NCBI RefSeq assembly: GCF_023699475.1
Contig: NZ_JALXFV010000005.1
Location: 186,001-250,000 of the forward strand
Length of the DNA stretch: 64,000 nt
Source: Halomarina rubra
Lineage (GTDB): Archaea; Halobacteriota; Halobacteria; Halobacteriales; Haloarculaceae
Reading direction: 5' to 3'
Shown: positions 14,147 through 61,826 of the stretch, piece by piece
Layout of the letters: each line of letters opens with the position of its first letter
Numbering within the stretch: the stretch's first letter is position 1
Position numbers and translations under genes: made by a program
Notes under the pieces: model-generated
What the model was told of the DNA's origin: nothing
Seen by the model: the letters and a program-made list of their open reading frames with translations, nothing else
The model's database searches: none

Positions 14147-15592
14147 TCAGTCGTGGCTGTGTTCGGCGTGGTCGTGGGCGTCGTCGTGGTCGTGGTCCGC
14201 GTGGTCGTCGTGGTCGTGGTCCGCGTGGTCGTCGTGGTCGTGGTCCGCGTGGTCGTCCGCGTCACGCCCGTTCCCGGCGATGAGTTCGTCGCTGTCGTTC
14301 ATCATGTCGAGGTTCTTCAGGTTGTCCCGCTCCTCGAAGTCCTCGACGGCGTCCAGCAGGTCCTGCTGGGTGAGCGTCGTGCGTTCCTCGGTGAGCGCCT
14401 CGAGGACGGCCTCGCGCAGGACGAGGCGGAGGTCGCTGCCGGTCAGACCCTCGGTCTCCGCCGCGAGCGCGTCGGGGTCGAAGTCGACGATGTCCATCTG
14501 CCGAGTGATGACCCGGAGGATGTCCGAGCGCATCCCGTCGTCCGGTTTGGGGAAGTTGACGATCTCGTCGAAGCGCCGCCACGCCGCCGAGTCGAGTTGG
14601 TTCGGGTGGTTGGTCGCGCCGATGAGCAACACCTCGTCGCGGATGAGCGAAATCTCGTCGATGGACTTGAGCAGCGTGTTGACCGCACGCTTGATGGCCG
14701 CGTGCTCGTCCGACGAGCGCGTCTTCGCCACGAAGTCGAACTCGTCCATGAAGAAGATACACGGCGAGAGGCGTTTCGCGACCGCGAACGCCTTGTCGAC
14801 GTTCTTCGCCGTCTCCCCGAGGTACTGGCTGGTGATCATCGACAGTTTCACCTCGACGAACGGCAGGTCGAGTTCGTGGGCCAGCGCGCGGGCGATGCTC
14901 GTCTTCCCGGTTCCCGGTGGGCCGACGAACAGCAGTTTCCCGATCTCGCGCAGGCCGATCTGGGCGAGGTAGTCGCGGTGCTCGATGGCCTTGACTATCT
15001 TCCCGATCTCGCCCATCTGGTCGTCCGTGAGCACGAGGTCGTCGAGGGTCATCTCGACCTCCTCGGGTGCGCGGACCTCCACGAGGTCGAGCATCTCCTC
15101 GTCGTCCTCGTCGAACATCTGGTCGAGCAGGCTGTCGATCCAGACGCGGTCGGCGTGGACGGGGCGGTTGTTCGCACGGGCGACCTCGTAGTCGACGTCC
15201 TCGAACTCCCCTTCGAAGGACAGCGCGAGCGTCGGGTTCGCCATGAGGCGGGCCGCGTCGGCCCGTTCGGTGAACCACTTTCGGGCCATCCCCACGTCGG
15301 TGAAGTTGATCTCACCGGAGAACTCCTTGCGCTCGGTGAACATCAGGTCCGAGATGGCCTCCCACGGGTGGTCGAGGCCGGTCGCCTCGGCGACGGCCGT
15401 CTCGCTCGTGGAGAGAGGGCGTTCGATACCCCCCGGAGCGGGGCGGGAGGAGGACTCGTCGGGGGTCGCCTCGGCGCTCCAGAAGGCGCGTCGGTACGAC
15501 GGCGGAAGGTCGCCCGGGTCGAGTTCGCGGTTCTCGCTGTAGACGTGTGCTGTCAACAGCAGTTCGACGACGTCGAGCGCCGGGCCGGTCAT
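14147..15592 (-). CDS. AAA ATPase with C-terminal His/Asp-rich tail
   Basis: A 481-residue AAA protein with a single ATPase module. Walker A GPPGTGKT lies at residues 224-231, Walker B at FFMDEFDF, sensor 1 at LIGATNHPN and an Arg-finger region at AAWRRFDE. The module resembles the Cdc48/proteasome-activating group but the first 200 residues show no recognised N-domain. The last 35 residues are almost only His, Asp and Ala, built of three 24-bp tandem units encoding DHADHDHD; such a tail could bind Ni, Co, Zn or Cu. It overlaps closely with the PhnP-like gene downstream and sits 90 bp after the Agl23-like gene. Function unknown; a metal-linked remodelling chaperone is one guess. Confidence 0.8.
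   Translation of the reverse strand: MTGPALDVVELLLTAHVYSENRELDPGDLPPSYRRAFWSAEATPDESSSRPAPGGIERPLSTSETAVAEATGLDHPWEAISDLMFTERKEFSGEINFTDVGMARKWFTERADAARLMANPTLALSFEGEFEDVDYEVARANNRPVHADRVWIDSLLDQMFDEDDEEMLDLVEVRAPEEVEMTLDDLVLTDDQMGEIGKIVKAIEHRDYLAQIGLREIGKLLFVGPPGTGKTSIARALAHELDLPFVEVKLSMITSQYLGETAKNVDKAFAVAKRLSPCIFFMDEFDFVAKTRSSDEHAAIKRAVNTLLKSIDEISLIRDEVLLIGATNHPNQLDSAAWRRFDEIVNFPKPDDGMRSDILRVITRQMDIVDFDPDALAAETEGLTGSDLRLVLREAVLEALTEERTTLTQQDLLDAVEDFEERDNLKNLDMMNDSDELIAGNGRDADDHADHDHDDHADHDHDDHADHDHDDAHDHAEHSHD
14180..14268 (-). repeat. Tandem 24-bp repeat encoding the His/Asp tail
   Basis: Three near-identical 24-bp units lie end to end near the 3' end of the AAA gene, each encoding Asp-His-Ala-Asp-His-Asp-His-Asp. 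The units are almost identical at the nucleotide level, which points to recent duplication and to likely length differences between strains. Confidence 0.8.
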
Positions 15593-58736: not shown

Positions 58737-61700
58737 ATGTCGGAGCGAAACGGAGCAGATGACGGGCTACAGCGCCAGAAGACCGCGTCAACGGATAACA
58801 CACCATCGTCGGAAGACGGAGCGAACCAGGGGGGACCACTGGGTGGCATCGACCGCCGCCAGTACCTGAAGCTCGGAGCGGCGACGGCCGTCGGGGCCAT
58901 CGGCTTCTCGGGACGTTCGACCGCGGAGACGCGGGCGGGCATCTCGTTCGACCGGGTCGTCGACGCCGTCGACGACCTCGGGATGGACCCGGACGGCGAC
59001 AGTCCCATCGACGACGCCCTCGACCGGGGGTTCGACGACGGGACGCTCATCGAGTTCCCGCCGGGCGAGTACCTCGTCACACGGGTCCACGAGTTCAACA
59101 GCGTCGACAACGCCGGTATGGTCGGGAAGACCGGCGACCGTTCGGACGTCGAGTTCGTCTTCCCCGACGGGTACGACGAGCAGTTCCTCAACGTTCGGTT
59201 CGGGCAGGGCTGGCTGTTCGGCGACTTCACGCTGCAACAGACCGACGACACCGCGACCGGTGCGGGGTTGGCGTTCGGGCCGAACCGCGACTGCGTCCTC
59301 AGGAACGTCGAGATCGCCGGGTTCAACCCGCGGAACAAACAGCGTGGGATGGAGTTCGTCGTCTACGACGACGACGGCGAGGCGACCATCGACCGCTACG
59401 TCCGCACGGGCGGCAGCGCGGTCGGTGACTACCCCTCCGGGACCCAGGCACTGTTGATTCCCGAGGAACACGAGGGTACCATCTACATCGAGGACGCACA
59501 GATCGAGAACGCCGGCGAGAACGGCATCTACGCCAGCCGTGGGTCGGGCGACGTCCGCATCGAGGGCGGTTACTTCGCGAACAACGACATCGCCTCGGTC
59601 CGCATCGCGGGCGATGGGTCGTACATCAAGGGCGCGACGTTCGTCGTCGACACCGACAGCGCCGACAAGACGGGGACGTACTTCAACACCCGCGCGCTCT
59701 GGCTCGAATCCGGCTCGAAGGGCTACACCGGTGGTCTCGTCGAGGACTGTGACTTCACCATCAAGAACGCCCCCAACTGCGACGGGGCCATCCGCGTCCA
59801 GACGACCGCCGGCGACGTGACGATTCGGAACTGCCGGTTCCGCAACGAGACGCGGTTCCCGACCATCTACGCCGAGGAACCGGACCGTATCAGCGGCGAC
59901 GGCCCGGTCACCATCGAGAACTGCAGCATCACCGGCGGGGCGTCGAACCCCCGACGCGGTGCCATCGAACTCGAAGAGCGCGACGGCTCGTCGATCTCCT
60001 CGTGTTGTATCTCGATGGACGGCGAGCAGGACGGCGTCGTCGTCCGCAGTTCGAGCGGGGTCACCGTTCGCCGGTCGACCATCGACGTCAACGGCGAGGC
60101 GCTCGTCACCCCCGGCTCGAACGTCGGTACCTCCGGGCTGTCGTACAGTGGAAGCTGTCCGCTCCCCGACGACGACGGGACCGGCGCGGGCGGCGACACC
60201 GGCGGCTCCGAGGACGGCTCGGACGACGACGGCGGTTCGGACGACTCCGACGGGTCGGATGGCAGTGACGGCTCCGACGACGGCAGCGACGGGTCGGACG
60301 GAACCGACGATTCGGACGGCAGTGATGGCTCCGACGACTCCGAGTCCGACGACTCCGAATCCGACGACTCCGAGTCCGACGACTCCGAATCCGACGACTC
60401 CGAATCCGACGACTCCGAATCCGACGACTCCGAATCCGACGACTCCGAATCCGACGACTCCGAATCCGACGACTCCGAATCCGACGACTCCGAGTCCGAC
60501 GACTCCGAATCCGACGACTCCGAGTCCGACGACTCCGAATCCGACGACTCCGAATCCGACGACTCCGAATCCGACGACTCCGAATCCGACGACTCCGAGT
60601 CCGACGACTCCGAATCCGACGACTCCGAGTCCGACGACTCCGAGTCCGACGATTCGACGGAGGCCAGCGATGGGTCGGAGGAGTCCGACGACACCTCCGA
60701 ATCCGAATCCGACTCCGACGACTCGTCGAGTGAAGCGTCCGGTGACGGTGAGGAGTCGAGCGACGACGGCGACGGCGACCGCGGTGGTGCCAGCGCGCTG
60801 TCGGGTGAGACGCGGACGCTGCGGCTCACCGCCGACACCGTCTCGCCGTACGAGTTCACCGTCGGCGGCGACGTCGAGTTCGACCCCGGCTACGGGACCG
60901 AAGACCGCATCGACGGCAGCACCGTCCGCGGCGTGCTCGCGGGCGGCACCGACGCCTACCGGTTCACGGGCGACCTCACCTCGTTCACCGTGAGCGGGGA
61001 CGCGACGGTCACCCTCGACGGCCAGCGGGTGGACACGTCCGCGCTCGGCGGCGGGTCGAGCGGGAGCACCGACGACTCTGGTAGCGCAGACGACTCCGAG
61101 GAGTCCAGCGAGAGCGACTCCGGGTCGGACCAACAGTCCGACGGCGAGTCCAGCGACGAGTCGAGCGGCTCGAACGACGGCTCCAGCGACTCCGACGACA
61201 CCTCGTCCGGCGACGAGTCCAGTGAGTCCAGCGACTCCACGGACTCGTCCGGTGAGTCCGACGAGGACGTCTCCGGTGGGTCGACCGACGTCGGGTTGGC
61301 GAACGTCATCGTGCTCGAGTCGGACGCCGAAGCGCCGTACGACCTCGAAGTGAGCGGCGACATCGCCTACCTGCCCGGCTACGGGCGGGACGACTCGGTC
61401 ACCGAGTCGGGTGCGAACGGCGCGCTCGCGGGCGGTGCCGACGCCTACCTGTTCTCGGGACTCGTCACCGCCTTCGACTGCGAGGGCGACGTCTCGGTGA
61501 CGGTCAACGGCGAGTCGGTCGCCGCCGAGAACGTCGTCGGGAGCGGCTACGACGGCGCGGGCGACGGCCAGTCCGGGTCGAAGGTGCTCTCGCTCGTCGG
61601 CGACGCTTCGGACTACTCGTTCGCGGTCGACGGGACCGCAGAGCGGGTGCCGACCTACGGCGACGACGACCACATCGACGGGCAGGTCGTTCGCGGCGCG

Positions 61701-61826
61701 CTCTACGGCGGGCGCGACGACTACCGCATCGAGGGCGACCTGCTCTGGTTCGACATCCAGGGCGACGCCGAGATCCGCCTCGACGGCGAACCGGTCGACG
61801 CCAGCGACCTCCCGAACCAGGCCTGA
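58737..61826 (+). CDS. Tat-exported beta-helix protein with Ser-Asp repeats and three C-terminal repeats
   Basis: A 1,029-residue surface or secreted protein. Residues 38-60 form a Tat signal (DRRQYLKLG then a hydrophobic run); there is no Cys lipobox. Residues ~70-490 look like a right-handed beta-helix: repeated short strands with Asp/Asn turns (for example GTIYIEDAQIENAGENGIYA, GGYFANNDIASVRI, DVTIRNCRFRNE). Residues 500-535 are Gly/Ser/Asp-rich, then 21 exact copies of Glu-Ser-Asp-Asp-Ser (536-640), an extended acidic stalk. Three ~75-residue copies of one domain follow (about 690-762, 855-928 and 947-1025), with a second Ser/Asp linker between copies one and two. No archaeosortase-type C-terminus is seen, so the triple domain may attach it to the S-layer or to glycans. 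The architecture is like bacterial Sdr adhesins. Native function unknown. Confidence 0.85.
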   Translation: MSERNGADDGLQRQKTASTDNTPSSEDGANQGGPLGGIDRRQYLKLGAATAVGAIGFSGRSTAETRAGISFDRVVDAVDDLGMDPDGDSPIDDALDRGFDDGTLIEFPPGEYLVTRVHEFNSVDNAGMVGKTGDRSDVEFVFPDGYDEQFLNVRFGQGWLFGDFTLQQTDDTATGAGLAFGPNRDCVLRNVEIAGFNPRNKQRGMEFVVYDDDGEATIDRYVRTGGSAVGDYPSGTQALLIPEEHEGTIYIEDAQIENAGENGIYASRGSGDVRIEGGYFANNDIASVRIAGDGSYIKGATFVVDTDSADKTGTYFNTRALWLESGSKGYTGGLVEDCDFTIKNAPNCDGAIRVQTTAGDVTIRNCRFRNETRFPTIYAEEPDRISGDGPVTIENCSITGGASNPRRGAIELEERDGSSISSCCISMDGEQDGVVVRSSSGVTVRRSTIDVNGEALVTPGSNVGTSGLSYSGSCPLPDDDGTGAGGDTGGSEDGSDDDGGSDDSDGSDGSDGSDDGSDGSDGTDDSDGSDGSDDSESDDSESDDSESDDSESDDSESDDSESDDSESDDSESDDSESDDSESDDSESDDSESDDSESDDSESDDSESDDSESDDSESDDSESDDSESDDSESDDSESDDSTEASDGSEESDDTSESESDSDDSSSEASGDGEESSDDGDGDRGGASALSGETRTLRLTADTVSPYEFTVGGDVEFDPGYGTEDRIDGSTVRGVLAGGTDAYRFTGDLTSFTVSGDATVTLDGQRVDTSALGGGSSGSTDDSGSADDSEESSESDSGSDQQSDGESSDESSGSNDGSSDSDDTSSGDESSESSDSTDSSGESDEDVSGGSTDVGLANVIVLESDAEAPYDLEVSGDIAYLPGYGRDDSVTESGANGALAGGADAYLFSGLVTAFDCEGDVSVTVNGESVAAENVVGSGYDGAGDGQSGSKVLSLVGDASDYSFAVDGTAERVPTYGDDDHIDGQVVRGALYGGRDDYRIEGDLLWFDIQGDAEIRLDGEPVDASDLPNQA
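60342..60656 (+). repeat. 21 tandem copies of a 15-bp unit (Ser-Asp stalk)
   Basis: Twenty-one head-to-tail units of Glu-Ser-Asp-Asp-Ser. All serines use TCC and all aspartates GAC up to the last unit (GAT and TCG). The only change inside the array is the third base of the Glu codon: 14 GAA and 7 GAG. Such uniformity shows recent expansion by slippage or unequal exchange; each unit adds five residues without a frameshift. Confidence 0.98.

Follow-up and report, generated by a model that had tools for sequence, protein, structure and literature searches.

An exported beta-helix protein with three C-terminal domains

The window, a stretch of 64,000 nucleotides from the genome of Halomarina rubra, contains at 58737-61826 an intact ORF that starts with ATG and encodes a protein of 1029 amino acids (Table 1). 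The twin-arginine motif DRRQYLK (residues 40-45) is followed by an Ala/Gly-rich stretch in which motif reading finds no lipobox. The Tat assignment is motif-based, and the RR motif is common to nearly all relatives of the protein. A beta-helix head (residues 68-477) is joined through an acidic linker, with exactly 21 SDDSE units at residues 532-636, to three copies of a domain some 80 amino acids long, hereafter the C-domain. The copies occupy residues 692-770, 855-933 and 948-1025 with i-E values of 1e-28, 1.5e-22 and 1.4e-23, respectively. No PGF-CTERM or other sorting signal was found in the protein with NCBIfam models, which detected PGF-CTERM in the positive control (locus L161), and no LPXTG motif is present at the C-terminus, where the chain ends in the folded third C-domain. 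The initial annotation had listed a Tat signal, a beta-helix head, 21 exact acidic repeats, three copies of an unassigned domain and the lack of a sorting signal, all of which were recovered here; it had left out the second Ser/Asp-rich linker, between C-domains 1 and 2. The Tat route had been set against the Sec route of bacterial adhesins, but Tat export is no surprise in haloarchaea and is ordinary there, where secreted polysaccharide lyases likewise carry Tat/SPI signals (PMC13260240).

Table 1. Positions of the gene and of its parts within the window.
Feature	Position	Strand	Basis or remark
Whole gene, exported 1029-aa protein	58737..61826	+	ORF; syntenic orthologues in Halomarina oriensis and H. 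halobia
Tat signal region, RRQYLK, without lipobox Cys	58824..58931	+	Motif reading
Head, right-handed parallel beta-helix	58938..60167	+	Pfam PF13229; AlphaFold model; Foldseek
Acidic Gly/Ser/Asp/Glu linker (stalk)	60177..60782	+	Longest among 54 relatives
21 x SDDSE tandem array, 15-bp unit	60330..60644	+	TRF and protein reading
C-domain copy 1	60810..61046	+	Domain profile
Second Ser/Asp/Gly-rich linker, 79 aa	61047..61283	+	Between C-domains 1 and 2
C-domain copy 2	61299..61535	+	Modelled together with copy 3
C-domain copy 3, ending 4 aa short of the C-terminus	61578..61811	+	

The acidic stalk is a variable spacer

TRF assigned the array a period of 15, 21.5 copies and 96% matches (score 597; 60330-60652). 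The units are exact in the protein but not in the DNA, because the DNA copies differ by GAA/GAG. A codon pattern for two SDDSE units matched this array alone in the 4.07 Mb genome and the reversed control gave zero matches; the array is far beyond chance. It was absent from all other copies of the gene sampled in 243 genomes of the order, and a three-unit pattern found one match elsewhere in these genomes (genome G068, C1:174126-174166, locus L125). The orthologues of H. oriensis and H. halobia carry a Gly/Ser/Asp-rich linker without the SDDSE array. Among 54 family proteins, the linker from the head to the first C-domain ranges from 3 to 211 amino acids (median 32), that of the window protein being the longest, and the linkers contain low-complexity units of many kinds, such as TTDSTTDS, STDSASTDS or SDDGTSDDGT. 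Because the orthologues lack the array and linker length varies, the stalk is a variable spacer that underwent a recent local expansion, an oddity of this species and not a trait of the family. Independent long Ser/Asp/Glu stalks of 139-165 amino acids, built from another repeat unit, occur in two relatives (L068 and L069).

The initial annotation had taken the plan of bacterial Ser-Asp adhesins as the defining feature of the protein. Staphylococcal Sdr/MSCRAMM proteins (SdrC, ClfA) do resemble it in having an exported head and a long Ser-Asp-rich stalk. However, the window protein follows the Tat and not the Sec route, its stalk unit SDDSE is private to the species, and its C-terminal domains are folded and unrelated. 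None of the Sdr/MSCRAMM features looked for was found, neither an LPXTG/sortase signal nor an Ig-like A-region head (the head here being a beta-helix) nor an SD-repeat stalk conserved in the family. Kinship with Sdr proteins was rejected on the private stalk, the different head and the missing sorting signal, and the likeness is that of a look-alike and not of a relative.

The fold of the head matches an adhesin and polysaccharide-active enzymes

The head matched the Pfam family Beta_helix (PF13229) with E = 2.4e-12 when searched alone and 3e-11 within the whole protein. Its score of 43.6 bits, against a cut-off of 25.9, places it in the parallel beta-helix (pectate-lyase-like) superfamily. 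The AlphaFold model of the head has a mean pLDDT of 94.1, and Foldseek matched it to PfbA, RbmB, AlgE4/AlgE6, GH87, GH28 and tailspikes with E values from 3e-6 to 1e-3. Thus the structure prediction called for in the initial annotation returned carbohydrate-active beta-helix matches for the head. Such heads were found in 156 of the 243 sampled genomes of the order, covering 51 genera. A phage origin of the head was also considered and was rejected, with no match among 50,697 phage records.

PfbA, a surface adhesin of Streptococcus pneumoniae with a right-handed beta-helix head, was the top Foldseek match at 12-13% identity; its anchoring is different. The window protein could accordingly be pictured as a surface adhesin like PfbA or Sdr proteins, the head binding a partner surface, the acidic stalk projecting it and the C-domains serving as anchor. 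The long stalk followed by repeated C-terminal domains fits this picture, as does fast evolution: dN/dS against H. oriensis (NG86) was 0.58 for the head and about 1.0 for the C-domains compared with 0.16-0.38 for neighbour genes, values that are biased by high third-position GC and usable only relative to the neighbours. The orthologues of H. oriensis and H. halobia share 63-64% and 54% with the head. However, the matches to AlgE epimerases and RbmB are as good as that to PfbA, the stalk is not conserved, the relatives of the window protein sit in exopolysaccharide biosynthesis clusters (see below), and sister proteins that lack C-domains sit near the membrane through a lipid anchor. We consider an adhesin quite unlikely. 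The role in adhesion, biofilm or polysaccharide binding suggested in the initial annotation is upheld for the link to polysaccharide and matrix, and has weak evidence for adhesion, where the PfbA match is equalled by those to AlgE and RbmB.

The mannuronan C-5 epimerases AlgE4/AlgE6 and the matrix lyase RbmB share the beta-helix fold with the head (E about 1e-5), act on the exopolysaccharide of their producer and, in a further likeness, have accessory modules. A head of this kind could be a lyase, epimerase or glycosidase that acts on the cell's own exopolysaccharide, as AlgE, RbmB and WceF do, with the C-domains as carbohydrate-binding modules holding it to the polymer. The GH87 and GH28 fold matches, the polysaccharide gene context of relatives and paralogues, and the joining of C-domains to GH16 and GH26 all speak for such an enzyme; WceF, a beta-helix enzyme that modifies a glycan biofilm (PMC7949094), is a precedent for exopolysaccharide modification by this fold. 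On the other hand, an alignment of 49 heads yielded few invariant polar residues (D80 and R289; D84, N282 and D305 are near-invariant) and neither a conserved His or Lys nor a conserved catalytic set, so the head is not established as an enzyme. A PDB sequence search with the head returned only weak repeat matches, and the C-domain is not the AlgE R-module. An enzyme is a serious candidate all the same, at somewhat under an even chance. A polysaccharide is the likely ligand of the head, judging by fold and gene context, and the head may perhaps be catalytic.

Relatives of the gene lie in polysaccharide clusters

The window gene is flanked by genes for an NAD-dependent DNA ligase, a class V aminotransferase, an MFS transporter and a Cys/Met-metabolism PLP enzyme; from these neighbours it is solitary and not part of a polysaccharide cluster. 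The surrounding chromosome is syntenic with that of H. oriensis and H. halobia. Both full-length C-domain beta-helix paralogues of the same genome sit in polysaccharide clusters, together with flippases, glycosyltransferases, UDP-sugar dehydrogenases and DUF354/DUF1616 proteins. Polysaccharide-type neighbours were also found for nine of ten annotated relatives on haloarchaeal plasmids, the exception being a head-only protein of Halocatena. These neighbours include a flippase, glycosyltransferase, nucleotide-sugar dehydrogenase, DUF354, DUF1616, asparagine-synthase-like protein, sulfatase, or glmS/glmM, and in Haloferax and Halomarina the genes repeatedly follow the order DUF1616, GT2, beta-helix protein, sugar dehydrogenase, DUF354. 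By sequence, the 1029-aa protein is a member of a large haloarchaeal family associated with exopolysaccharide gene clusters.

The C-domain is an unnamed haloarchaeal module

Of the 243 genomes sampled from the order, 177 encode C-domains, and these cover 62 of 77 genera. Across 295 genomes sampled from the phylum there were 37 positives, all of them within the order of the window. The usual family layout is a head followed by one to six C-domains, and the last copy lies 10 aa or less from the C-terminus in 78 of 102 proteins. No match to the C-domain was found in Pfam, searched with single copies and with 45 members, or in a PDB sequence search, and no NCBIfam model covers it. A model of copies 2 and 3 (pLDDT 88.7) has about eight strands per domain; Foldseek gave nothing below E = 0.03 against PDB and BFVD with this query, a two-domain tandem that lowers TM scores. 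Carbohydrate-binding modules such as CBM2 are likewise small, repeated, all-beta and fused to glycan enzymes, but the fold match to CBM2 is weak (E about 0.7) and there is neither a sequence match nor a significant fold match. Sugar binding by the C-domain is without structural support because no fold match is significant. Membership in a known carbohydrate-binding or S-layer family, which is half of what the initial annotation had named as refuting its reading, was checked and rejected on the lack of significant matches in Pfam, NCBIfam, PDB and BFVD.

Besides beta-helix heads, C-domains are fused to GH16, S8 protease plus GH26, PPC, thioredoxin and YCF48-like propeller domains. With partners of so many kinds, the C-domain is a mobile accessory module, and it can lie elsewhere than at the C-terminus. 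In two loci (L146:2418-6461 and L147:1721-5620, + strand), a single chain consists of a subtilase, seven C-domains and a mannanase-like GH26 domain, with the C-domains between the two enzymes, and would join a protease and a glycosidase in one secreted protein. Another protein of the H. rubra genome (L011:2995-6753, contig C12, about 353 kb) is exported by Tat and has a YCF48/PSII_BNR-like propeller, between whose units two C-domains are inserted. Locus L161 has three adjoining ORFs with Sec-like N-termini, PPC domains and one divergent C-domain each; one ORF has a PGF-CTERM tail that scores above the curated cut-off, and another narrowly misses that cut-off. Since some copies adjoin PGF-CTERM or sit N-terminally, the C-domain is not only an anchor. 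The new anchoring domain of the initial annotation is thus retained as an unnamed family that behaves like a retention module, but not as an anchor alone.

C-domains and lipoboxes exclude each other

Surface retention of secreted Tat proteins in haloarchaea is known for lipoproteins and for PGF-CTERM (ArtA) proteins. The window protein has neither signal, and the C-domain seems to be used instead of a lipobox. With lipoboxes called by regular expression, none of the 55 head proteins with C-domains has one, whereas 33 of 38 without C-domains do (Fisher p about 1e-18); the single match in a C-domain protein (L047) falls ahead of the start codon and was excluded as false. No lipobox was found among 102 C-domain proteins with any head. 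The tree shows at least 20 changes of state for the C-domain and at least 16 for the lipobox. Among 17 phylogenetically independent contrasts, the two states moved oppositely in about 13 and together in none (median sign-test p 0.0002). Both forms, a lipobox head protein and a C-domain head protein, are encoded within the DNA examined at 19 loci (L074, L080, L090, L091, L092, L093, L098, L101, L106 and ten others), where the two genes are often tandem neighbours and in some cases group as sisters on the tree. The value of the finding lies in the unnamed C-domain and in the mutual exclusion between it and lipidation.

On the simplest reading, C-domain proteins are retained by these domains in place of a lipid anchor. 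We tentatively propose that the C-domain is a new, haloarchaea-specific domain for non-covalent retention at the surface or matrix, swappable with the Tat lipobox, and that many loci deploy the same head in a lipid-anchored and a C-domain-held form; we judge this somewhat less likely than not. Release of C-domain proteins into the medium is possible. The C-domain would then be a stability or solubility module and the missing lipobox a mark of free secretion. Haloarchaea do secrete free Tat enzymes (PMC13260240), and the C-domain has no proven ligand, but free release leaves the one to seven tandem copies and the C-terminal position of the last copy in 78/102 proteins unexplained, and we find it improbable. 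The C-domain might also bind the S-layer glycoprotein or its glycans and not exopolysaccharide. A generic surface anchor of this type would fit the exclusion of lipoboxes and the joining of C-domains to unrelated heads (propeller, thioredoxin, protease), whereas the frequent fusion to glycan enzymes and the presence of C-domains beside PGF-CTERM in some proteins argue against it; S-layer binding is unlikely in our view.

A model for retention at the cell surface or matrix

Taking together the domain layout, the family spread, the gene context of relatives and the exclusion of C-domains and lipoboxes, we put slightly better than even confidence in a secreted protein that binds or modifies exopolysaccharide and is held at the surface or matrix by its C-domains. 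The protein would be exported by Tat and its signal cleaved. The head would bind an acidic extracellular polysaccharide along a long groove, and perhaps cleave or epimerise the polymer. The C-domains would act as non-covalent retention modules on a surface or matrix glycan or on the S-layer, keeping the protein at the cell or matrix and standing in for the lipid anchor of the sister proteins without C-domains. The Ser/Asp-rich linker would be a soluble spacer of variable length that grew by tandem duplication in this species. If the model is correct, a third way of retention, outside Pfam and NCBIfam, would be widespread in the order (62/77 sampled genera), would account for where hundreds of unannotated proteins are located, and would tie beta-helix proteins to the little-understood exopolysaccharides of haloarchaea.

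A further repeat is present in another ORF of the window (14147-15592, - strand), which carries a 24-bp tandem repeat at 14180-14257 with 3.2 copies and 100% identity.
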